From Limnobacter sp. 130 (GTDB lineage Bacteria > Pseudomonadota > Gammaproteobacteria > Burkholderiales > Burkholderiaceae_B): a stretch of DNA of 64,000 nt. Shown here piece after piece: positions 19,473 through 31,020 of the stretch. The position numbers were made by a program, and so were the translations under genes. The stretch is taken from NCBI RefSeq assembly GCF_902506325.1, contig NZ_LR732330.1:310001-374000 (forward strand), read 5' to 3'. Under the pieces are notes generated by a model. The model did not search any database, was not told the DNA's origin, and saw only the letters and a program-made list of their open reading frames with translations. Each line of letters opens with the position of its first letter. The stretch's first letter is position 1.

Positions 19473-19554
19473 ACATTCACTGGGATCGATGTCTGTGGGA
19501 AGCGTCGAAACCTTCTGAAAAAGATTGCTCGATTTGAATAGGAGGATGTTCAAA

Positions 19555-19872
19555 ATGAAAGCAAATGAACTACTGGAACAAATTCGCGAAGCCAATTTAT
19601 CTTACCTGCTTCTGGCCAAACAACTCATCAACGAAGACAAAGCCGAGGCCATCATTCGCCTGGGTATCGATGAAAACACAGCAGACTTGCTGGACCAACT
19701 GACCACCGCACAAGTCTTGCGCATTGCAGCAAACAATGTGCCCATGTGCAGCATTCGGTTCGAAGACCCTGCCGTGTGGAAACTCCTCTCCGACCACGGA
19801 AAAGAACGCGCCATTTCGGGCATGCACGCCGCCATCCTGATGGCTGGCCGCAGCGCCCAAATTGCAGCTTAA
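19555..19872 (+). CDS. flhD: Flagellar transcriptional activator FlhD
   Basis: A 105-residue protein that matches FlhD throughout: MKANELLEQIREANLSYLLL at the start, then QLINEDKAEAIIRLG, ALRI-like VLRIAANN and the C-terminal ISGMHAAILMAGR. FlhD and FlhC form the FlhD4C2 complex that activates class 2 flagellar promoters with sigma-70. ATG at 19555 has AGGAGG eight to nine bases upstream; an ATG nine bases earlier touches the AGGAGG and is unlikely. flhC follows after 54 bases. No flagellar structural or mot/che gene is next to the pair in this window. Confidence 0.93.
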   Translation: MKANELLEQIREANLSYLLLAKQLINEDKAEAIIRLGIDENTADLLDQLTTAQVLRIAANNVPMCSIRFEDPAVWKLLSDHGKERAISGMHAAILMAGRSAQIAA

Positions 19873-19926
19873 ACGCACTTAAAAAAACCGTGGTTCATGC
19901 ACCCAAGGGTGCTTTGGAGAACAGAC

Positions 19927-20493
19927 ATGTCAAAGATTAAATCCTTGATGGCTGAGGCTGTCCAAATCAAACTTGCTTCTGACCTGATCAAGCTGGATGC
20001 CCGCTTGCAAGTTCTGGAAAGCGAAACCCAATTGTCGCGTGAACGCCTGATTCGCCTTTACAAGGAAATCAAGCAGAAATCACCACCCAAGGGCATGCTG
20101 CCCTTTTCAACCGACTGGTTCATGACCTGGCAGCCGAATATTCACTGCTCGCTGTTCATTAATTTTTACTCGACATGCATCAAACACACCGACCTTGAAG
20201 ACGGGGAATGCCTGGTAAAGGCTTACAAACTTTATCGCGAGCAAATCAACGCCTTGGGCCTACCGGAAGTGTTGTCGCTGACCCGTGCATGGCGCCTTGT
20301 GAAGTTTTTTGATGCCGGCATGCTGACCACCACTGCCTGCAAAACCTGTCAGGGCAACTTTGTGGTGCACACCTATGACCTGGTGAACAACTACGAGTGC
20401 GGTTTGTGCAACATGCCTTCCCGTGCCGGGAAAACCAAGCAAGACGCAGCCACCCGCTTCTTCAATGAAGAAAGCATGCTGGAAACCGCTTAA
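19927..20493 (+). CDS. flhC: Flagellar transcriptional activator FlhC
   Basis: A 188-residue protein; the N-terminal helix region LMAEAVQIKLASDLIKLDAR, the GMLPFSTDWFMTW segment and the zinc-binding Cys quartet CKTC...CGLC near residues 140-165 are all typical of FlhC. FlhC provides the DNA-binding specificity of the FlhD4C2 master regulator of motility. The ATG at 19927 has GGAG eight bases upstream; the longer frame has no support. The gene ends 25 bases before the converging DUF1854 gene of the cyanophycin locus, with no obvious terminator between them. Confidence 0.93.
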   Translation: MSKIKSLMAEAVQIKLASDLIKLDARLQVLESETQLSRERLIRLYKEIKQKSPPKGMLPFSTDWFMTWQPNIHCSLFINFYSTCIKHTDLEDGECLVKAYKLYREQINALGLPEVLSLTRAWRLVKFFDAGMLTTTACKTCQGNFVVHTYDLVNNYECGLCNMPSRAGKTKQDAATRFFNEESMLETA

Positions 20494-20518: not shown

Positions 20519-20986
20519 TCAAGCCATAAACCGGGCAAGGATTTGCCGGCTTCTGGCGTCCAGCGCAAACATGTCTTCGACAATGAACTGCATGCCGTTT
20601 GCATGGGTCAGCACCAGGCGACTACCACCCAGTCGTCGAATGCTTTCATCCGTGGGTAACTCAAACTTGCAGGGCCCTTTGTCGGTTTCCAAGGTCCAGA
20701 TGCTTGGCGTGGAGTACGTGGACACCGAAGTAATTCGCAGCACCGAGGGCCTGAACTCCCGCACAGCAAGGTACTCTTTCGCCACTGCTTGTGAGTCGGC
20801 GTCCAGTTGATCAAGCCGGTCCAGCCAGGCCAGTTCCTTGCTGTACTCATCCACAATTGAAATACTTTCGTCAGGCGCGGAAAAAGGAAATGCCAGCACC
20901 GGCATGACTTGGTCTGCCACCAGTGCATTGCCTTTGTACAAGGCCAACTTGCCTTGAGTTGATTCACGCAATCGCCATTCATTCAT
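20519..20986 (-). CDS. DUF1854 protein associated with cyanophycin metabolism
   Basis: A 155-residue protein without membrane segments or signal peptide, recognised as the DUF1854 family by its arrangement: a PVLAFPFSAPDESISIVD strand region, the acidic ELAWLDRLDQLD helix, VAKEYLAVREFRP, and the ending DMFALDARSRQILARFM. It starts inside the last codons of the ABC transporter gene (eight-base overlap), so the two are translationally coupled. The family regularly accompanies this ABC transporter beside cphA genes in betaproteobacteria; its activity is unknown. A partner or accessory role for the transporter is an inference from the linkage only. Confidence 0.85.
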   Translation of the reverse strand: MNEWRLRESTQGKLALYKGNALVADQVMPVLAFPFSAPDESISIVDEYSKELAWLDRLDQLDADSQAVAKEYLAVREFRPSVLRITSVSTYSTPSIWTLETDKGPCKFELPTDESIRRLGGSRLVLTHANGMQFIVEDMFALDARSRQILARFMA

Positions 20987-23201
20987 ATTGGGCTTGCTCC
21001 TGCTTCAGTTTTTCCTGGGTCTGGTGCAAATGCCAAAAATGCGACTTCGCTGCCAGCAATTCATCGTGCGGCCCCTCTTCTACCACCTTGCCACGGTCCA
21101 TTACCACAATGCGGTCGGCTTTGCGCAACGTTGAAAGTCTGTGTGCAATCGCAATGGTTGTCCTGCCCTGCACCAGGTTGTCCAAGGCTTTCTGGATCTC
21201 CTTTTCTGTTTGAGAATCAACCGAGCTGGTGGCTTCGTCCAGAATGAGGATTTTCGGATCAATTAGCAGTGCGCGTGCAATCGAAATGCGCTGGCGCTCA
21301 CCGCCCGACAAACTTTGACCACGCTCACCGACCAAAGAATCGTACCCATGCTGCAGTCGCAAAATAAATTCGTGCGCGTGTGCCAATCGAGCCGCTGCGA
21401 TAATTTCTTCACGGGTGGCATCGGGGCGTCCATACGCAATGTTTTCTGCAATGGTGCCGAAAAACAAATACGGCTCTTGCAATACCAAACCAATGTTGCG
21501 GCGATAACTTCCCATCTCGATCTGGCGAATATCAATACCGTCGGCCAATACAGCGCCATCGCTCACATCGTAAAAACGACACAGCAAATTCACCAAAGTG
21601 GATTTACCCGAACCACTGTGACCCACCAAGCCAACCATCTCACCCTGCTTGACCTTCAGGCTGACACCGTCGAGCACTTGCCTGCTGCCATAGCGGAAGG
21701 ACACATTGCGCAATTCCAGCTCACCTTTGAGCTGATCGATTTTCACCGGGTTTTCAGCTTCCGGCACAGAGGACTTGTAATCGAGAATGTCAAAAATTCG
21801 CTTGGAGCCAGCTGCCGCTTTTTGGGTCACTGACACAATTCGGCTCATGGAATCGAGCCGCGTATAAAAACGACCTATGTAAGCCAGAAACGCCGTGAGC
21901 ACACCCACGGTGATGTCGTTGTTCATGATCATCCAAATGCCCGAGGCCCAAATCACCAAAATACCCAACTCGGTCAACAAGCTAACCGTGGGTGCAAACA
22001 GTGACCAGGTTTTGTTGATTCGGTCGTTCACCTCCAGGTTACGGGTATTGGCTTTCAGGAAGCGATCCGACTCCCTGCGTTCCTGAGCGAAAGCCTTCAC
22101 AACGCGAATACCGGGAATGGTATCGGTAAGAATGTTGGTGACTTCTCCCCACACTCGATCCACTTTCTCAAACCCAGTGCGCAATTTTTCACGCACCAGG
22201 TGGATCATCCAGGCAATCACCGGCAAAGGCAGCAAAGTCAGCAAAGCCAGCTCAAAATCAATGTTCATCAAGATGACGGCGGTCATCACAATCATGATGA
22301 CATCGGTGATGAAATCGAGGGCATGCAGCGAAAGGAACAAATTGATTCGATCGGTTTCAGCACTGACACGCGCAATTAAATCGCCGGTGCGTTTTGCGCT
22401 GAAATAATCAAGCGACAAACTCATCAAGTGGTTAAATGTGGTGGTTCTTAAATCGGAACCGATTCGCTCAGAAACCAAAGCCAACAAATAGGTTCTGGCC
22501 CAGCTCAGCACCGCAGCCACCACGGAGGAAATTAACAAAGCACTCAAATAAAATGTGGCCAGCTCGGTATTCATGGGTTGGCCATTCTGGAATGGAATCA
22601 GTACCTCGTCCATGAGCGGCATGGAAAGATAGGGCGCCACAAGTGTTGCCGCAGTGGAAAGCAAAGTCAAAACCAGCCCGGCAAACAGACGCCAGCGATA
22701 GGGGTGCGCAAACTGCCACAAACGCAACAAGGCACGAGAGGACACTGGCTCGTCAAAACCGGCCTCGTCCAACTCATCTTCGGCGAGCAAACGTGGCACT
22801 GGATGCTGAATTTGGGCAGTGTGCGCCATGCCCTGCTCAAATTCGCGCACAGCGGTTTCAAGCAGCTCAACGAATTCTTCAAGTGCGCGATGCAAACTGA
22901 AGCTTGCGTAGAAATAAAATACCTGCCCGGAGTCAACCTGAATCAAGACCGTTGAAAGACCGGAATGATCAGACATCGAAATTTTTTCAATGCTCGCGAA
23001 AGGTGCTTTGAAAACAGGCGCCTGCGAGTCCCTGTCTACCACAATTAATTCATGGGCGTTAAAGGCTACTAGGCTGCGAGAAAACTCACGCCGAGTATTC
23101 ATGTCAGCGACAAACACCGCTTGGGTTGGCGTGTTTGCGGCCCATACCTCTGAAAGTCGTTGTACTTCGTTTTCAGACGGTGAAAATCCAACGATTTTCA
23201 A
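20979..23201 (-). CDS. ABC exporter (permease-ATPase half transporter) of the cyanophycin locus
   Basis: A 740-residue half transporter with an unusual extra N-terminal domain. Residues 1-130 are soluble and look like a PH-type beta-sandwich with a final helix (RSLVAFNAHELIVVD, FKAPFASIEKISM, then HRALEEFVELLET). The type I exporter membrane domain follows (about 165-460), then the ATPase with Walker A GHSGSGKST, signature LSGGERQRIS and Walker B ILILDEATSSVD. The start is TTG with GAGGGG eight bases upstream. It is divergent from cphA across 69 bases and coupled to DUF1854. In related bacteria it is annotated as a cyanophycin-metabolism-associated ABC transporter; the transported compound is unknown. 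Confidence 0.9.
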   Translation of the reverse strand: MKIVGFSPSENEVQRLSEVWAANTPTQAVFVADMNTRREFSRSLVAFNAHELIVVDRDSQAPVFKAPFASIEKISMSDHSGLSTVLIQVDSGQVFYFYASFSLHRALEEFVELLETAVREFEQGMAHTAQIQHPVPRLLAEDELDEAGFDEPVSSRALLRLWQFAHPYRWRLFAGLVLTLLSTAATLVAPYLSMPLMDEVLIPFQNGQPMNTELATFYLSALLISSVVAAVLSWARTYLLALVSERIGSDLRTTTFNHLMSLSLDYFSAKRTGDLIARVSAETDRINLFLSLHALDFITDVIMIVMTAVILMNIDFELALLTLLPLPVIAWMIHLVREKLRTGFEKVDRVWGEVTNILTDTIPGIRVVKAFAQERRESDRFLKANTRNLEVNDRINKTWSLFAPTVSLLTELGILVIWASGIWMIMNNDITVGVLTAFLAYIGRFYTRLDSMSRIVSVTQKAAAGSKRIFDILDYKSSVPEAENPVKIDQLKGELELRNVSFRYGSRQVLDGVSLKVKQGEMVGLVGHSGSGKSTLVNLLCRFYDVSDGAVLADGIDIRQIEMGSYRRNIGLVLQEPYLFFGTIAENIAYGRPDATREEIIAAARLAHAHEFILRLQHGYDSLVGERGQSLSGGERQRISIARALLIDPKILILDEATSSVDSQTEKEIQKALDNLVQGRTTIAIAHRLSTLRKADRIVVMDRGKVVEEGPHDELLAAKSHFWHLHQTQEKLKQEQAQYE

Positions 23202-23270
23202 TGAGATTACCCCCTCAGTTCGCGAATTCGCTGATGTTACACCACTATTTCCAGCGACACGGAGTTAACA

Positions 23271-25463
23271 TTGATCGAAAATCCAATCCTAGAAAACAAA
23301 CCTGCCGGCACTCAGCTTATGACGCAAAAACGCCTTGAAATACTCCGAACCATGTGGCTTGATGGCCCAAATATCTGGACCTATCGAAGTTGTATCGAGG
23401 CGTTGGTGGACATACAGGAACTGGAACAGTTTCCATCCAACTTGCTGCCAGGCTTTTACGAGCGATTAACGGCTTTGCTACCCGGTTTGGTTGACCACCG
23501 CTGCGGAATTGGTGAACCAGGCGGTTTTCTGCTGCGCGTGCGCGAGGGCACCTATGCTGCGCACATGCTCGAACACATCGTCATTGAACTACACACCCAG
23601 GCCGGGCTTGAGGTCGGTTTCGGCAAAGCCCGAATGACCAGCAAAGACGGTGTTTACAAAATGGTGTTTCGCACCCCCGATCCTGTTGTCGGCATGGCTT
23701 GCCTGGAGGCCGGTGTGCGGCTGTTACACGCTGCCATTGAGGGCACCGAGTACGACTTACAAGCCGAGCTGAAAGTGATCAAACGTCACTGTGACATGCA
23801 TGGCCTGGGACCAAGTACCCAACATATTCTAGACGCCGCCTATGAACGGCGCATTCCTATCGTTCGCCTGAACGATGGCAACCTGGTTCAATTGGGCCAT
23901 GGAAACAAACAACAGCGAATCTGGACAGCTGAAACGTCGAAAACATCGGCAATTGCTGAGGGCATTGCCGCTGACAAGGACTTGTGCAAGGAATTGCTGG
24001 CTCAATGTGGCGTGCCGGTTCCCGAGGGTGCGTTTGCAAAGACAGCCGAACGCGCGTGGGAAATTGCGCAGGAAATCGGCTTGCCTGTGGTGGTTAAACC
24101 AGTGGATGGTAACCAGGGCCGCGGGGTTTCACTTGAGCTGGACAAACAGGAAGACATACAAAAAGCCTGGGCACTGGCTTATGAAGAAAGCTACAGCGGC
24201 GTAATTGTAGAGAAATTCATACGGGGTGTGGAGCACCGTGTGCTGGTGGTCAACTACCAAATCGCCGCAGTTTCGCGTGGAGAGCTGGTCAGCGTGAAAG
24301 GCGATGGCCAATCTACACTGCAAAATTTGATCGATCTGCAAATTAATGCCGATCCACGGCGCGGTGAAACAGAAATCACGCCACTTAAAACAATCCGCAT
24401 TGCCTCAAACCCTGTGGTGACGCTGGAAGTTCAGCGACAAGGCTATCAAGCCGATTCGATCATTCCCCTCGACAAACAGGTCATCATCGAGCGAAACAGC
24501 AACGCCTCTGAAGATGTGACCGATTTGATTCACCCTGAAATTGCGCGACTGTGTTGCATGGCTGCGCGTGTTGTTGGGCTGGACGTGGCGGGTATCGACC
24601 TGGTGTGTGAGCACATTGACCAGTCCCCCAAAGGGCAATCGCTGGCTGTGGTCGAAGTCAATGCTGGCCCTGGGCTGCTAATGCACATCAAACCCGCCAG
24701 GGGGCAGGCACGCAACGTGGGCAAACCCATTATTGAGTCGCTGTTCCCCGGTGATGCGAATGGTCGAATTCCCACCATTTCTTACTCGGGCGGCAAGGAA
24801 ATCGATGGTTTCGGCCCCGAACTCACCGAAATTCTTGAAGACCAGGGCCACAAAGTAGGCTTGGCCTGCGACCAGGGTTTGGTCATGAACGGTCGCACCA
24901 TTAACAAAGCACCTTCAGCCAACTGGCAATCGGGTCGAAATTGCCTGATCAACAAGAACCTTGACACACTGGTCATGCAGGTCAAAGCCAGCACAATTTT
25001 ATCGGAAGGCCTGCCTTTTGACCGATCAAGCCTGGCGGTCATTACCAGCATGGGTTCAATGGATGGGCTGAACGAATGGGACATTCTCACCAAAGAGCAG
25101 CACTTCAATGTGATGCGCACGTTGGTGGACCTGGTGCTGGCTAGTGGTCACGCCGTGGTGAATGCAGACGAAGTCAGCCTGTTACCCTTGAAAGACCTGT
25201 GCGATGGAAAGGTAATCTGGATCAGCAACAGCGCTGACAACCCAATTGTTACCGAACATGTCAAAAATGGCGGTATGGCAGTGATTTATCAAAGCGAGAA
25301 CATCCATTTCATGGGTCCCCGGGCGGAAGCCGAACAAAGAAGTCCCATACCCCTGAGACAGCCCCCTGTGAATTTAACCAAGGCACTGGCTCTGGCTGCT
25401 GCGGGCTGGGCGATGGATGTGCCCCACCACCTGCTGCGCGCCGATCTTCGGCAGCGCTATTGA
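23271..25463 (+). CDS. Cyanophycin synthetase paralogue without the Mur-ligase P-loop (CphA2-like)
   Basis: A 730-residue protein homologous to cyanophycin synthetase. The N-terminal domain (LDGPNIWTYRSCIEALVDI) and the ATP-grasp domain (about residues 215-490, with VVVKPVDGNQGRGV and EVNAGPGLLMH) are intact. In the Mur-ligase-like part the P-loop GTNGKTT is replaced by YSGGKEIDG at about residues 505-513, and the C-terminal Mur domain is shortened (730 residues against 872 in the neighbour). In cyanobacterial CphA2 a similar loss goes with polymerising beta-Asp-Arg dipeptides. The TTG start has GGAG six to seven bases upstream; an ATG at 23319 is the alternative. cphA follows after 34 bases. 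Confidence 0.87.
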   Translation: MIENPILENKPAGTQLMTQKRLEILRTMWLDGPNIWTYRSCIEALVDIQELEQFPSNLLPGFYERLTALLPGLVDHRCGIGEPGGFLLRVREGTYAAHMLEHIVIELHTQAGLEVGFGKARMTSKDGVYKMVFRTPDPVVGMACLEAGVRLLHAAIEGTEYDLQAELKVIKRHCDMHGLGPSTQHILDAAYERRIPIVRLNDGNLVQLGHGNKQQRIWTAETSKTSAIAEGIAADKDLCKELLAQCGVPVPEGAFAKTAERAWEIAQEIGLPVVVKPVDGNQGRGVSLELDKQEDIQKAWALAYEESYSGVIVEKFIRGVEHRVLVVNYQIAAVSRGELVSVKGDGQSTLQNLIDLQINADPRRGETEITPLKTIRIASNPVVTLEVQRQGYQADSIIPLDKQVIIERNSNASEDVTDLIHPEIARLCCMAARVVGLDVAGIDLVCEHIDQSPKGQSLAVVEVNAGPGLLMHIKPARGQARNVGKPIIESLFPGDANGRIPTISYSGGKEIDGFGPELTEILEDQGHKVGLACDQGLVMNGRTINKAPSANWQSGRNCLINKNLDTLVMQVKASTILSEGLPFDRSSLAVITSMGSMDGLNEWDILTKEQHFNVMRTLVDLVLASGHAVVNADEVSLLPLKDLCDGKVIWISNSADNPIVTEHVKNGGMAVIYQSENIHFMGPRAEAEQRSPIPLRQPPVNLTKALALAAAGWAMDVPHHLLRADLRQRY

Positions 25464-25497: not shown

Positions 25498-28116
25498 ATG
25501 AAAATTGAACGCATTCGCGCCTTGCGCGGCCCCAATTTGTGGAGCAAAAACACCAGCATGGAAGCCTTGGTGTTTTGTGAAGAAAATGAACGCTTGTACG
25601 ATCGGTTCGCCAACATTGAAATGCGGGTACGCAGCGCTCTGCCCGGCATTGGTTCACTGCGGGCCACCGGGTTCGAACAAAGCAATATTGCACTGGCTCA
25701 CATTTTAAGCCGTGCCGCCCTGCGCTTTCAGGTTGAGGCCGGCTCGCAGGTCACCTTCGCCCATGTGGCCGACAACATCACCACAGGGTACTTTCGGGTG
25801 GTGGTACAGTACGAAGAAGAAGAATTGGCGCGTGCTGCCTTTGAAGAAGCTCACCAACTTATCCTGGCTGCACTGGCCGGGCAAGACTTCGACGCGAAAT
25901 CAGCCATTGAACGGTTGAAAGAGGCTTTTGAGGACTGCAAACTTGGACCAAGTACCGGCTCAATTGTCAATGCAGCCTTGCGCCGGGGCATTCCCATTCG
26001 CCGCCTGACACAGGGCAGCCTTGTGCAATTGGGCTGGGGCTCAAAAGCACGCCGAATCCAGGCTGCGGAAACAGACACCACCTGCGCCATTTCTGAAGAA
26101 ATTGCGCAAGACAAGGACCTGACCAAAACAATTTTGTCTGCCGCGGGTATTCCAACCCCCAAGGGCAAGCTGGTCAAAACTTTCGAGGAAGCGCTAGAGG
26201 CGTTTCGCGAACTGACCCAAACCACCAAAAAAGGGGTGGTGATCAAGCCCAGCGACGGCAACCAAGGCAAAGGCGTAACCGTCAATATTGTCGATGAAGA
26301 ACATTTGCGCGTTGCATTTGATGCCGCCAAAAAACACGGCAGTGGTGTACCCATTGTGGAGGAATTCATTCCTGGCCATGACTATCGCTTTCTCGTGGTG
26401 GGAGACAAACTGGTGGCCGCAGCACGTCGCGAGCCTCCATCTGTAGTGGGCGACGGCGTCAATTCAATTGCGCAACTCATTGAAATCGAAAACTGCAACC
26501 CACTGCGCGGCGAGGGCCACGGCAGTGCGCTGAGCAAACTTCGGCTCGATGAAATCGCAATAGCCCGGATCAAGAAACAGGGTTTCACTGCTGAAGCAGT
26601 ACCCGGGCAAGGTGTTCGAGTCGTACTGCGCAACAATGCAAACCTGAGTACCGGCGGCAGCGCAACCGATGTCACCGACAACGTGCACCCCGCCATGGCA
26701 GAAATGGTCATTCAAGCCGCACAACAAATCGGCATTGAAGTGTGCGGCGTTGATGTCGTGTGCGAACGCGTAGATGAATCACTTGAAGCCCAAGGTGGTG
26801 GCATTGTGGAATTGAATGCAGCGCCTGGCTTGCGCATGCACCTGGAACCCTCGATTGGCAAGGGCCGCGATGTCGGCGCAGCAGTCATCGATCTGATGTT
26901 CAAGAAAGACGAAAACGGTCGAATTCCAGTGGTGGCGGTGACCGGCACCAATGGAAAAACCACCACCGTTCGCCTGATTGAACAAATTTTGCGCTATCAC
27001 AACCTGCGTGTCGGCTTTACGGGCACCGAGGGTGTTGTCGTGAATGGTCACCTAATTGACACAGGCGATTGCAGTGGCCCGAAAAGTGCCCACAAAGTTT
27101 TGGTTCACCCCGAAGCAGACGCTGCGGTGCTTGAATGCGCACGTGGTGGCATGTTGCGTGAAGGCCTGGGCTTTGACATGTGCGACGTAGGCATAGTGAC
27201 CAACATTGGCGAAGGTGATCACCTTGGCCTGAACTTTATTGACAGCGTGGAAGACCTAGCCTTGCTGAAAAGCGTGCTGGTGCAAAACGTAGCCCCGGAA
27301 GGGCTTGCCGTGCTGAATGCCGATGACCGACATGCCGCCAACATGGCCAAGCTGACACCGGGCCGCGTGCTGTTTTTCACCAGCAACCCCGACAATCCGA
27401 TTGTTGCTGCACACAAAGCCAAAGGCCGCCCCGTGATTATTCACGATGGTCGGGTCATCAATATCAGCTATGACGACACCGAGAAAACCATCGACCTGAT
27501 GGATGTGCCATTGACCAACAATGGTTTATTCACCTTCCAGGTGCAAAACGTGATGTGCGCTGTTGCTGCAGCATTGGCCCTGAATGTGCCTTTAAACACC
27601 ATCCGTGCAGCACTGGGCAGTTTTCAGTCAACGCCCGACACCGTCCCTGGTCGCTTTAACTTTTTCAAGCACAAAGGTGGCTCAGTGATTGCCGATTACG
27701 GCCACAATCCCGATGCGGTCTCTACTTTGGTGAACACACTGAAAAACATACCTGCGATCAAACGCACGGTGGTGATTAGTGCTGCAGGCGATCGCCGCGA
27801 CCAGGACATTATCGAACAGGGTCGATTGGTGGGCGGCTTTTTCGATCACATTATTTTGTATGAGGACGCCTGCCAGCGTGGTCGCCCAGACGGTGAAACT
27901 CTCGCCCTGCTGCAGCAAGGCATTGCCCAATCCAGCAGCGATAAAAAACAATCGGTGGTGGAGGTGCGCGGTGAATTCAAAGCCATCCAGATGGCACTGG
28001 ATGAAACCGCACCGGATCACCTGGTGCTGGTGTTGATCGACCAGGTGAATGAAGCACTGCAGTACCTGCAAGGCAACACAAGCGGCGAAGCCGAAGCCAC
28101 GCGCGCTGCAGTTTAA
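25498..28116 (+). CDS. cphA: Cyanophycin synthetase
   Basis: A full-length 872-residue CphA, the enzyme that builds the storage polymer multi-L-arginyl-poly-L-aspartate from Asp, Arg and ATP. The order is the N-terminal domain (LRGPNLWSKNTSMEALV), the ATP-grasp domain that adds Asp (about residues 220-475; VVIKPSDGNQGKGV, ELNAAPGLRMH), and the Mur-ligase-like domain that adds Arg, with the P-loop GTNGKTTT at 483-490 and the C-terminal ADYGHNPDA and AAGDRRDQD motifs. The start is ATG with AGG eleven bases upstream. Its last four bases overlap the end of convergent norR. No cyanophycinase gene lies in the window. Confidence 0.95.
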   Translation: MKIERIRALRGPNLWSKNTSMEALVFCEENERLYDRFANIEMRVRSALPGIGSLRATGFEQSNIALAHILSRAALRFQVEAGSQVTFAHVADNITTGYFRVVVQYEEEELARAAFEEAHQLILAALAGQDFDAKSAIERLKEAFEDCKLGPSTGSIVNAALRRGIPIRRLTQGSLVQLGWGSKARRIQAAETDTTCAISEEIAQDKDLTKTILSAAGIPTPKGKLVKTFEEALEAFRELTQTTKKGVVIKPSDGNQGKGVTVNIVDEEHLRVAFDAAKKHGSGVPIVEEFIPGHDYRFLVVGDKLVAAARREPPSVVGDGVNSIAQLIEIENCNPLRGEGHGSALSKLRLDEIAIARIKKQGFTAEAVPGQGVRVVLRNNANLSTGGSATDVTDNVHPAMAEMVIQAAQQIGIEVCGVDVVCERVDESLEAQGGGIVELNAAPGLRMHLEPSIGKGRDVGAAVIDLMFKKDENGRIPVVAVTGTNGKTTTVRLIEQILRYHNLRVGFTGTEGVVVNGHLIDTGDCSGPKSAHKVLVHPEADAAVLECARGGMLREGLGFDMCDVGIVTNIGEGDHLGLNFIDSVEDLALLKSVLVQNVAPEGLAVLNADDRHAANMAKLTPGRVLFFTSNPDNPIVAAHKAKGRPVIIHDGRVINISYDDTEKTIDLMDVPLTNNGLFTFQVQNVMCAVAAALALNVPLNTIRAALGSFQSTPDTVPGRFNFFKHKGGSVIADYGHNPDAVSTLVNTLKNIPAIKRTVVISAAGDRRDQDIIEQGRLVGGFFDHIILYEDACQRGRPDGETLALLQQGIAQSSSDKKQSVVEVRGEFKAIQMALDETAPDHLVLVLIDQVNEALQYLQGNTSGEAEATRAAV

Positions 28117-29666
28117 ATACCAAGCCGCTTTAACATGCGGTGAAAATTACCGGAATCGAGCCCCAGTTGTCTGGCGGCTGCGGCTCGATTGTCATCGGTT
28201 TGCTTCAGCACCTGCTGAATCAAGTTTCTTGAAAACTCATCCACGGCATCGCGATAATCCATGCCACCCATCGGGGTACTCATTGCAATGTCTGGGTGAC
28301 GATGAAGCCGAACATGTTCCTGCCCTGCTTCGGTCAAAAGGTCCAGGTGCTCAAGCTCCACGGTCACCATGGGGCCCGCTTCATCCCGGCGTGCCTTCAA
28401 CGCTGCGCGCCCCAATGTGTGCTCAAGCTCTCGCACATTACCCGGCCAGTTGTAACGCTTTAAGGCCGCTTCGCAACCACGACCCAAACGAAGATTTCGC
28501 AACCCCAACCGACTGCGGTTTTGTTCCAGAAAATAACCGGCCAGCAACACCACGTCGTCGCCCCGCTCACGCAAAGGGGGAATGTGCAAAGGGTAAGCAC
28601 ACAAACGGTGATACAGATCAGCCCTGAAGCGCCCTGCTTTCACCTCGGCAGACAAATCGCGATTGCTGGCCGCAACAATGCGAACATCAACCCGATGCTC
28701 CCTGTCGCTGCCCACACGCTGCACTTGCCCGCTTTGGAGCACCCGAAGCAGCTTGGCCTGCGCAGAGGCACTTAACTCGCCCACCTCATCCAGAAACAAG
28801 GTGCCCTCGTTGGCCAATTCAAACTTGCCCTGGCGATCGCGCTCAGCCCCGGAAAACGCACCCTTAACATGACCAAACAACTCGCTTTCAATCAACTGGT
28901 CAGGCAAAGCTGCGCAATTAATCACCACCAAGGGTAAATTGGCGCGACTCGACATGGCATGCAGAGCCTGCGCAACCAATTCTTTGCCTACACCGGTTTC
29001 GCCATGAATCAGTACTGCCAACTGACTACTGGCAACGGTCAAAATTTCATGCTTTAGATCGCGAATGGGTTTGCTGTCGCCAATCATTTCCCGGCGAGAC
29101 AATTGAACGCCCTCCAGTGCCTGCAAAGCATTGCCATTGCCCTGACTCAGCTTCAAGTTGGTCAAGGTTCGCTCGTTCAATTCAGCCAAATGCACCACAG
29201 CCTCGCCCAAGCGGGCGAACATGGCCATGGCCCGCTCAACTTTGACGTCGAACACCCCTGCCTTCAAAGAATCAAGGGTAATCGCACCCCACAACTTGCC
29301 ATTGACATGCAGGGCACAACCCATGCAATCGTGCACAGTCAAATCCCCCGCATGCACCCCTTCCAGCAGACCATCGTAGGGATCAGGCAGCGTGGACTTG
29401 TTTGGAAAATGAGTGACCCCCCGGTAAGTGACAATCGCATTTAAGCGGGGATGCTCATTCAATTCAAAGCGGCGCCCCAGGCTATCCGGCGTCAAACCCC
29501 GAACGACCAGTGGCTTTAAGGCCGAGCCTTCCTTTTTTAGCAAGGCACACGCGTTGCCCGGCAATGCCGCTGCCAATGAATTCACATAACGTGCATACCG
29601 GGTCTGCGGATCCAGGTCAGCGCCCAAGTCCTCGATCACCGCCATCACAAAACTGGACATTTCCAT
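28113..29666 (-). CDS. norR: Nitric-oxide-responsive sigma-54 activator NorR
   Basis: A 517-residue regulator: an N-terminal GAF domain (about residues 15-180) that in NorR holds an NO-sensing mononuclear iron, an AAA+ domain (Walker A GETGVGKE, Walker B TLFLDEVGEL) and a C-terminal Fis-type helix-turn-helix ending NFHRMLKRLGI. The sigma-54 contact loop reads GAFSGA instead of the usual GAFTGA, a conservative change. EHPRLNAIV, FPNKSTLPDPYDGL and the Fis end match NorR well. It is divergent from hmp, and three NorR-type sites lie directly before its start, so it probably also controls itself. The start is uncertain: the first ATG has no ribosome binding site and sits two bases from a site; ATGs at codons 3 and 8 are alternatives. 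Confidence 0.92.
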   Translation of the reverse strand: MEMSSFVMAVIEDLGADLDPQTRYARYVNSLAAALPGNACALLKKEGSALKPLVVRGLTPDSLGRRFELNEHPRLNAIVTYRGVTHFPNKSTLPDPYDGLLEGVHAGDLTVHDCMGCALHVNGKLWGAITLDSLKAGVFDVKVERAMAMFARLGEAVVHLAELNERTLTNLKLSQGNGNALQALEGVQLSRREMIGDSKPIRDLKHEILTVASSQLAVLIHGETGVGKELVAQALHAMSSRANLPLVVINCAALPDQLIESELFGHVKGAFSGAERDRQGKFELANEGTLFLDEVGELSASAQAKLLRVLQSGQVQRVGSDREHRVDVRIVAASNRDLSAEVKAGRFRADLYHRLCAYPLHIPPLRERGDDVVLLAGYFLEQNRSRLGLRNLRLGRGCEAALKRYNWPGNVRELEHTLGRAALKARRDEAGPMVTVELEHLDLLTEAGQEHVRLHRHPDIAMSTPMGGMDYRDAVDEFSRNLIQQVLKQTDDNRAAAARQLGLDSGNFHRMLKRLGI

Positions 29667-29668
29667 AT

Positions 29669-29685
29669 ATTGTCACTTTAACAAT
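29669..29685. promoter_or_regulatory. NorR-type binding site 1
   Basis: ATTGT-N7-ACAAT, containing the GT-N7-AC core described for NorR enhancers. It lies two bases upstream of the norR ATG. One of three identical-arm sites in the norR-hmp intergenic region. Confidence 0.75.
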
Positions 29686-29686
29686 T

Positions 29687-29703
29687 ATTGTGTTATTAAC
29701 AAT
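29687..29703. promoter_or_regulatory. NorR-type binding site 2
   Basis: ATTGT-N7-ACAAT with the same arms as sites 1 and 3. The centre is 18 bases from the centre of site 1. Confidence 0.75.
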
Positions 29704-29711
29704 AATAGTAC

Positions 29712-29728
29712 ATTGTTTTTAGCACAAT
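29712..29728. promoter_or_regulatory. NorR-type binding site 3
   Basis: ATTGT-N7-ACAAT, centre 25 bases from that of site 2 and about 75 bases upstream of the sigma-54 promoter, a suitable distance for an enhancer. The region between is very AT-rich, which would favour bending. Confidence 0.75.
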
Positions 29729-29802
29729 CTTTTGAAATATTTAACAAATCCATAATTATCAATTAATTATATTAATCAATAGCTTAAAAAAATTTTAACG
29801 TC

Positions 29803-29818
29803 TGGCATGGATCTTGAT
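29803..29818 (+). promoter_or_regulatory. Sigma-54 promoter of hmp
   Basis: TGGCATGGATCTTGAT fits the -24/-12 pattern TGGCAC-N5-TTGCW with the invariant GG and near-invariant TTG in place (GC of the -12 element is GA here). It faces hmp, whose ATG is 60 bases downstream, and is preceded by three NorR-type sites. Confidence 0.8.
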
Positions 29819-29877
29819 AGTACTTGTCACCGAGAAGCATGTGTCAATTTACAATCACGCGAAAAAGGAACATCAAC

Positions 29878-31020
29878 ATGTCAGTGAGCACCGAACAAAA
29901 ACAATGGATCAAGGCAACCATTCCCGCACTTGAACAGGGCGGCGAGGCCTTGACCACGCACTTTTACAAACTGATGTTCAGCAAATACCCGGTTACAGCC
30001 ACTTTTTTCAATCCGGCTCACCAGCAAAAAGGCACCCAACCGCGTGCACTGGCCAATGCGGTACTGGCTTATGCAAAGCACATTGATAACCCAGCCGTGC
30101 TGATGGGTGCGGTTACCCTGATCGTGAACAAACACGTGGCACTGGGCGTTAAGGCCGAGCACTATCCTATCGTGGGCGAATGCCTGCTGCAGGCCATGAA
30201 AGAAGTACTGGGTGCAGCAGCCACCCCCGAAATTATCGACGCCTGGGCAGCCGCATACGGCCAACTGGCCGATATTTTAATTAATGCAGAAGCCAACCTG
30301 TATGCCAAACAAGCCATGTCCGCTGGAGGGTGGGAGGGGCAACGCGCTTTCAGAATTGCCGCGAAAGAGCAAGAAAGCGAACTGGTCACATCTTTTTACC
30401 TGAAACCGGTGGACGGCAAAGAGATCATGACCTTCAAGCCAGGGCAATACATTACCCTGCACTTGAATATCAATGACACAAGCATCATGCGCAACTATTC
30501 CCTGTCTGACTCACCCAATGGGGAGCACTACCGAATCTCGGTAAAACGCGAAGAAGGTGGCATGGTGTCCAACCACCTTCACAATGAATTTGCTGTGGGC
30601 GACACCGTGCAACTCAGCCCGCCCTGTGGCGAGTTTGTACTCGATGACAGCAAAGACCCACTGGTGTTGATTACCGCAGGCGTGGGGCTGACACCCGCCA
30701 TTGCCATGCTCAAAGCTGTTGCCGGCCAGCGCGAGATTCGATTCATTCATGCCTGCAAGAACGTAGCGCAGCACTCATTCAAGAATCTGACTGAGCAATT
30801 GAAGGCTCAACACAGCAATATCACCACCGAGTATGTTTATGAAAATCAGCATGGCTTGATCAAAGCCCAAACCATTGAAAACAACCTGCCCAACAATGCA
30901 CAAGTTTACTTTTTGGGACCAGTTGGTTTCATGGGTGCAGTGAAAAGCATGCTCGGAAAACTGGGCGTGCCTGCCGACCGTCAGCATTTTGAGTTTTTCG
31001 GCCCTGCGCAAGCCATTTGA
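29878..31020 (+). CDS. hmp: Flavohaemoprotein, nitric oxide dioxygenase
   Basis: A 380-residue protein with a globin domain (residues 1-140), then a FAD domain and an NAD domain. The proximal haem His is His86 in NKHVALG, the distal Tyr30 lies in HFYKLMF, the FAD site is RNYSLSD, and the NAD domain has TAGVGLTPAIAML. Hmp turns NO and oxygen into nitrate in the cytoplasm. The ATG at 29878 has AAGGAA about seven bases upstream; a longer frame to 29824 would start within the promoter. Control by NorR and sigma-54 is predicted from the upstream sites. A stand-alone receiver gene converges on its end. Confidence 0.95.
   Translation: MSVSTEQKQWIKATIPALEQGGEALTTHFYKLMFSKYPVTATFFNPAHQQKGTQPRALANAVLAYAKHIDNPAVLMGAVTLIVNKHVALGVKAEHYPIVGECLLQAMKEVLGAAATPEIIDAWAAAYGQLADILINAEANLYAKQAMSAGGWEGQRAFRIAAKEQESELVTSFYLKPVDGKEIMTFKPGQYITLHLNINDTSIMRNYSLSDSPNGEHYRISVKREEGGMVSNHLHNEFAVGDTVQLSPPCGEFVLDDSKDPLVLITAGVGLTPAIAMLKAVAGQREIRFIHACKNVAQHSFKNLTEQLKAQHSNITTEYVYENQHGLIKAQTIENNLPNNAQVYFLGPVGFMGAVKSMLGKLGVPADRQHFEFFGPAQAI

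Follow-up and report, generated by a model that had tools for sequence, protein, structure and literature searches.

Comparison with Known Cyanophycin Systems

In the passages that we draw on from Sharon and Schmeing (PMC10206079), storage is given as the sole role of cyanophycin, and the canonical storage locus consists of the synthetase CphA1 and a cyanophycinase, sometimes with IaaA. According to excerpts of PMC9262961, solved CphA1 enzymes have three sites: the G site adds aspartate and the M site adds arginine. The third, Cx19HxxEH in the N domain, is shared by many CphA1s, though not by every one, and cleaves cyanophycin to give primers. Here we describe a locus of Limnobacter sp. 130 (assembly GCF_902506325.1, contig NZ_LR732330.1, positions 310,001–374,000 of the forward strand; this whole stretch of 64,000 nucleotides is called the window) in which two synthetase genes, cphA′ and cphA, diverge from the genes for an ATP-binding cassette (ABC) half-transporter and a soluble DUF1854 protein. 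By comparison with its relatives, the locus represents a conserved unit of four genes that is common in one large bacterial group. At a probability of roughly 0.4, we favour the reading that the two synthetases would form a two-subunit, split enzyme and that its product would be exported by the dedicated ABC-DUF1854 pair.

The window CphA shares the N-G-M architecture and intact M motifs of the canonical locus and aligns with the solved cyanophycin synthases along almost all of its sequence. The locus differs from the canonical one in that the N-domain motif has moved to the second protein, an exporter and a DUF1854 protein have been added, and the window genome has no match to cyanophycinase (TIGR02069), IaaA or IadA (E ≤ 1e-10; no search was aimed at cyanophycin dipeptide hydrolases). 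Unlike in primer-independent CphA1s with Cx19HxxEH, the motif is lacking in the polymerising CphA and present in CphA′. In this respect CphA resembles the primer-dependent TmCphA1, and CphA′ could supply the motif in trans, as the added SuCphA1 N domain did in vitro in the experiments excerpted from PMC9262961; that case is a laboratory mixture, whereas here the two proteins come from conserved neighbouring genes. Cyanobacterial CphA2 lacks the N motif according to the same excerpts, which sets it apart from CphA′.

Several published observations touch on this arrangement. Cyanophycinase was reported in 2.8% of 903 beta-proteobacterial cphA1 genomes, a result called unanticipated in the cited part of PMC10206079. 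The Herminiimonas and Nitrosomonas genome papers mention two synthetase genes (PMC5670224, PMC4786657), and the Herminiimonas text also states that there is no cyanophycinase (PMC5670224); these observations fit both an export and a storage reading. Neighbouring cphA1 and cphA2 genes without a cyanophycinase are noted for Sideroxydans, with pH buffering as the proposed role (PMC5178258, in the part cited). Ralstonia eutropha has two CphA homologues and no cyanophycin was observed in the wild type, as the cited passage of PMC11362209 puts it after Adames 2013; this would count in favour of export if that strain carries the pair. A search of the open-licence literature found no paper on DUF1854, alone or with cyanophycin, or on the phrase "cyanophycin metabolism-associated" that NCBIfam uses in naming its models NF052233 (CphA_assoc_ABC) and NF052234 (CphA_assoc_prot). 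The association is thus already curated and known by name, and the function is absent from the names; no description of a split synthetase with an exporter in exchange for cyanophycinase was found in that literature. We set the unit apart from the two models by their names, which give association only, not by the models' own notes.

Probable Division of Functions Between CphA and CphA′

The gene cphA (25498–28116, + strand, 872 amino acids) scores 930.7 bits against the equivalog model TIGR02068, above the cut-off of 850, and cphA′ (23271–25463, + strand, 730 amino acids) scores 631 bits, below it. CphA has a G domain and an M domain whose motifs are intact, has lost the N-domain motif and carries Q in place of H267. 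In CphA′ the N and G domains are accompanied by an M (Mur-ligase) domain that is degenerate and truncated, without the DH motif and with GGKEIDG in place of the P-loop GTNGKTT; the loss of the P-loop had been picked out correctly by an earlier sequence-only reading of the window. That reading missed that the same paralogue keeps the N-domain protease motif lost in CphA, and that cyanophycinase is missing where the unit occurs. The metallopeptidase-like Cx19HxxEH motif lies at 23502–23576 (+ strand; residues 78–102 of the TTG-start open reading frame (ORF)). Across the aligned pair loci its C, H, E and H residues are found in 51/51 CphA′ and 0/49 CphA, the window CphA reading AHSR at the four columns (the CphA set excludes L040 and L047, which are incomplete or broken in two frames; L097 repeats the window). 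By pattern, among 80 named loci, the motif is present in 72 of 73 CphA′ and absent in 70 of 71 CphA. The M site is distributed the other way, with K499, D585 and H586 each in all 49 CphA and in 15, 13 and 11 of 51 CphA′, where the alignment is loose.

Over 46 loci, mean pairwise identity in CphA′ is 63% for N, 67% for G and 44% for the M core, with the M lid mostly gone; the CphA values for N, G, M core and M lid are 59, 71, 68 and 68%. Because N and G are held under constraint, CphA′ is not a dying gene. In a tree of 21 sequences of each type and 8 others, CphA and CphA′ form one clade each (100/100), with an unsettled root. Taken together, the alignments make a split of synthetase functions between CphA′ and CphA well supported.

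With residue roles taken from the cited portion of PMC9427784, the CphA′ G domain keeps K220, K261, R309, D431 and E450 in 51/51 sequences and H267 in 49/51 (E215 was dropped from the active-site table as its alignment column is visibly unreliable). Its pocket is altered: the aspartate-binding R458 is replaced by L in 48/51, and the substrate loop (NLSTGG) has a five-residue deletion in 51/51. Position 267 is H in all five distinct sequences of solved cyanophycin synthases, and we considered whether Q267 leaves CphA with a dead G site and hence makes the heteromer strictly obligate; this was rejected, as Q267 also occurs in an unsplit Magnetococcales CphA and in the two CphAs of locus L073, both described below.

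A Magnetococcales metagenome-assembled genome (MAG; L104, identical to L107) bears on the altered pocket. Its ABC-DUF1854 pair, with both proteins scoring above the NF052233 and NF052234 cut-offs, diverges from a single CphA that has the N motif, Q267, a normal aspartate pocket and intact M motifs, and whose terminus is cut by the contig end. This is the sole CphA with the N motif among the 71 of the named loci; the assembly has 8% contamination and the tree position of its CphA is unsettled. The locus suggests that the link between the exporter and cyanophycin synthesis is older than the duplication or arose independently of it. Since a CphA with normal R458 and loop adjoins the same exporter, the exporter would predate the altered G pocket or manage without it. 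This matters for the alternative that the pocket of CphA′ makes a different peptide, and that the cargo of the exporter is this peptide, or a form of it linked to lipid or cell wall, instead of cyanophycin. The loss of R458, the shortened loop and the retention of the checked ATP residues would all agree with such a change of substrate, but the Magnetococcales arrangement does without it and no further enzyme family is recurrent in the locus, and we consider this alternative quite improbable.

Association of the Transporter Pair with cphA

Among 150 genomes of the order, DUF1854 was found in 50 and the transporter scored over its cut-off in the same 50, all of which have TIGR02068 matches; one further transporter is interrupted by a contig end. 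Extended to 399 genomes of the order, the transporter occurs in 133, and 133/133 also have a cphA-family match (TIGR02068 at E ≤ 1e-170, which gave 147 genomes among the matches listed). The sequence-only reading had assigned the pair to the cyanophycin genes and had proposed that frequent pairs in genomes without cphA would speak against this; the survey found 0/133, so the assignment stands. It had also called the locus the best candidate in the window for an incompletely described system. Given the NCBIfam models that name both proteins for cyanophycin metabolism, the association itself is not undescribed, and on this point the reading was not fully right; the names give no function.

CphA lies within 20 kb of the transporter in 118 of the 133 genomes (by coordinates among the matches listed, as for the following counts). 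It is distant on the same contig in three (350 kb, 777 kb and 2.3 Mb, from two genera) and on another contig in nine, and three have no full-length CphA row: in G011 it is split over two frames, in G030 it runs off the contig and in G366 it is lower-scoring. Conversely, 14 cphA-family genomes are without the transporter, namely nine of genus g44, two of g62, and G122, G136 and G479; in G122 the transporter is interrupted by a contig end, and G136 and G479 are assemblies of 79 and 82% completeness. In a sample of 200 genomes of the phylum, DUF1854 was found in 7, all among the 9 with cphA, and six of these 7 come from the order already sampled. It could be argued that the pair stands near cphA merely by descent, as linkage alone could carry it along in the 118 linked genomes. 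Against this, co-occurrence is complete and persists when the genes are unlinked, and three genomes (G015, G029 and G037) lack both the pair and cphA while their genera g18, g32 and g40 otherwise have both; we find a neighbourhood without function hardly credible.

Among the control genomes, DUF1854 is not matched in Deinobacterium chartae, which has cphA and cyanophycinase; Caulobacter lacks cphA and gives a cyanophycinase match; and Sulfolobus acidocaldarius has a DUF1854 Pfam match and no TIGR02068 match. Because the broad Pfam model matches in the last of these, DUF1854 also exists outside cyanophycin loci.

In 69 of the 80 named loci, ABC, CphA and CphA′ all stand beside DUF1854; of the 11 incomplete loci, 10 are interrupted by contig ends and one is the unsplit Magnetococcales locus. 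Dechloromonas, Herbaspirillum and Thiobacillus are among the genera with the unit. Neighbouring families were counted in 48 of the named loci (17 from Achromobacter and all those no longer than 15 kb were excluded beforehand), giving ABC in 42, CphA and CphA′ merged in 38, an ORF antisense to DUF1854 in 30 and DUF1854 in 20. We take the antisense ORF to be spurious and to stem from the greedy gene caller, which for the same reason undercounts DUF1854. Apart from this artefact no fifth family occurs in more than 7/48 loci, which rules out further pathway genes in the locus. Plasmid carriage was likewise ruled out, with no DUF1854 match in 72,556 plasmid records. One contig titled as a Rhizobium sp. 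MAG (L165) carries the otherwise beta-proteobacterial unit, possibly through a binning error.

Cyanophycinase and Other Degradative Enzymes

All fetched loci were searched for cyanophycinase-like ORFs with four cyanophycinases as queries. The pair loci comprise 49 from the order and 80 named ones, 4 being common to both, and are 3 to 20 kb long (104/129 at least 15 kb). This search found no cyanophycinase ORF in any of the 125 distinct relative loci that carry the ABC-DUF1854 pair. A cyanophycinase accompanies each of the seven true cphA loci that lack the pair, adjoining cphA in six (L069, L071, L072, L073, L105 and L106) and standing on another contig of the same genome in one (L075 in G086, the genome of L070). 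L069, L071, L073 and L075 are the query genes themselves, and L072, L105 and L106 are independent matches. L074 (G136) has neither pair nor cyanophycinase; its TIGR02068 match of 575.7 bits is under the cut-off and without the CphA motifs, and for these reasons it was not counted as a true cphA. The L073 locus is a second cyanophycin locus of genome G056, with a cyanophycinase and two full CphAs, both reading NQGKG and without the N motif.

At the genome level (E ≤ 1e-10), TIGR02069 matches occur in 4/4 pair-less cphA genomes of the 150-genome sample and in 5/50 pair genomes: G021, G056, G068, G102 and G112. The G112 match is under the cut-off and G056 carries its second, canonical locus. Fisher's exact p for this contrast is 0.0004, a value that overstates independence because the four pair-less genomes come from only two genera. 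IaaA (PF01112) was found in 13/50 pair genomes and 4/4 pair-less cphA genomes, IadA in none of the 54 (an Escherichia coli control was positive), and cyanophycinase, IaaA and IadA are all lacking in 35/50 pair genomes. In the genomes searched, then, the unit is found where cyanophycinase is mostly missing. Lower cyanophycinase matches of 136–163 bits, in open frames of 407–424 residues, occur in G021, G068, G102 and G125; these are possibly of a secreted type, a guess from their length. The counts bear on the published puzzle of beta-proteobacterial cphA without cyanophycinase: in our samples, it is the loci with the exporter and two complementary CphAs that have cphA but no cyanophycinase.

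The same absence could be read as ordinary storage, with cyanophycin as an intracellular reserve, the N domain of CphA′ as the missing cyanophycinase, and the pair as a membrane anchor, sensor or overflow valve. The endo-cyanophycinase-type motif is kept in every aligned CphA′, in SuCphA1 a site of this kind cuts cyanophycin according to the excerpts of PMC9262961, and 13 of the 50 pair genomes have IaaA. The SuCphA1 site is slow, however, and by the same excerpts its products are mainly 4-mers; moreover, 37 of the 50 pair genomes lack IaaA and all 50 lack IadA, and the transporter relatives keep their ATPase motifs, as for an active pump. We regard storage as unlikely, although it is an alternative to be taken seriously.

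The Transporter Pair and a Possible Export Route

The ABC protein (20979–23201, − strand, 740 amino acids from a TTG start) is an exporter-type half-transporter with ABC_membrane and ABC_tran domains, and scores 1163.1 bits against NF052233 (curated cut-off 880). Its partner, the DUF1854 protein (20519–20986, − strand, 155 amino acids), scores 137.9 bits against PF08909 and 171.1 bits against NF052234 (curated cut-off 150). Fused transmembrane and nucleotide-binding domains with Walker A, signature, Walker B and H-loop give the protein the exporter-type architecture. Among 50 aligned sequences, one of them incomplete, these motifs are kept in 48, 49, 45 and 49, respectively. The half-transporter architecture and ATPase motifs are shared with MsbA, PglK and peptide exporters, but the protein falls under the cut-offs for MsbA, PglK and type I secretion (for the lipid A exporter MsbA, TIGR02203, 471.2 bits against 602), and it differs from MsbA, PglK and peptide exporters in its DUF1854 partner and a soluble N-terminal domain that mostly bears a zinc-ribbon pattern.

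This domain of about 155 residues (22698–23201, − strand, ending at the first transmembrane-proximal segment) ends in a CxxC-CxxC pattern in 41/50 orthologues, with weak zinc-ribbon profile matches; the window copy is without the pattern. Searches of PDB sequences with profiles of DUF1854 and of the N-terminal domain gave nothing convincing (best E of 0.11 and 0.0077, respectively, the latter a designed ankyrin protein), and weak VPS36 and GRAM matches merely suggest a PH-like N-terminal domain. In hydropathy-predicted membrane helices, the acids D296, D300 and E411 are conserved in 98, 100 and 92% of the 50 sequences; in the aligned eukaryotic ABCB sequences the positions of D296 and D300 are not acidic. 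Acids in such hydrophobic segments would suit an arginine-rich cargo.

They could also bind the guanidinium groups of small pathway molecules, and the transporter may instead export or import beta-Asp-Arg dipeptides or arginine, short chains being what the CphA′ site would release. Next to the transporter, however, no fifth gene family is recurrent (minor families are unannotated), and the transporter is tied to CphA and CphA′, not to dipeptidases, which makes a small-molecule role decidedly improbable in our view.

In the export reading, CphA would polymerise aspartate and arginine at its G and M sites, and the endo-protease site of the CphA′ N domain would make primers and short chains. CphA′ would also add a second ATP-grasp site with a changed amino-acid pocket, perhaps adding or capping with another amine. 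An ABC homodimer, aided by the soluble DUF1854 protein, would then carry an oligomer or polymer resembling cyanophycin through the inner membrane. We infer the cooperation of CphA and CphA′, export by the ABC protein, and the CphA product as cargo; export is favoured because the pump is of exporter type with kept ATPase motifs, co-retention is strict, degradation genes are few and the membrane acids are conserved. A wider claim, that much of Burkholderiales secretes an arginine-rich, cyanophycin-type isopeptide through a hetero-oligomeric CphA/CphA′ and the ABC-DUF1854 pair, and that this is not a reserve, is possible but on balance doubtful. If true, a common bacterial polymer would have an unrecognised fate outside the cytoplasm, cyanophycin production would gain a natural secretion route, and a secreted product would explain why Burkholderiales cphA genes lack cyanophycinase.

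Several points weigh against export. Nothing directly indicates what is transported or in which direction, and ABC proteins of exporter-type fold can also import. Q267 is no proof of a dead site, since both L073 CphAs and the unsplit Magnetococcales CphA carry it. The cyanophycinase matches in five pair genomes and IaaA in 13 have been noted above. Bordetella carries the unit (L128, L186), and cyanophycin has been found in Bordetella according to the cited part of a review (PMC8560796). Furthermore, the window copy of the unit is an outlier: its CphA′ has Q267, unlike the 49/51 with H267, and shares a long branch (0.81) with the CphA′ of a congener. With this Q267 and an ABC protein without the zinc ribbon, the window lineage is fast-evolving and may be losing parts.

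Gene Layout and Neighbouring Genes

All four ORFs were confirmed at the positions where the sequence-only reading had noted them. Its eight-base overlap of the half-transporter and DUF1854 genes is borne out on the minus strand (20979–20986). The two genes overlap in 27/49 relatives, with a median of −4 bases (starts chosen by the analyst), and across these relatives overlap or near-overlap is general. Its two divergent synthetase genes on the plus strand are both present, the second lying beyond position 25463, where its account ended. The 69 bases that it gave for the divergence are correct if both genes start at their TTG; with the in-frame ATG of cphA′ at 23319 the gap would be 117. This ATG stands six residues ahead of the residue that aligns with residue 2 of a solved CphA1, and it is likely to be the start of cphA′. 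The divergent upstream region common to both gene pairs (23202–23318, 69 bases to the TTG and 117 to the ATG) had no sigma-70-like site reported in it, and promoter and terminator scans gave no more than shuffled sequence.

A profile search found a single DUF1854 match in the window genome. In G138, a genome of the same family, the DUF1854 sequence is identical to that of L164, Achromobacter sp. Root83, which places an Achromobacter in this family. On the side of the DUF1854 gene, flhD and flhC (19525–20493, + strand) are convergent with it and end 25 bases from it; this family type stands beside the unit in no more than 7/48 loci. On the other side, a norR-like regulator gene and a divergent ORF occupy 28113–31020, and the norR-like gene shares 4 bases with the end of cphA. 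The divergent ORF resembles a flavohaemoprotein by eye, and the two are probably an ordinary nitric-oxide response pair.

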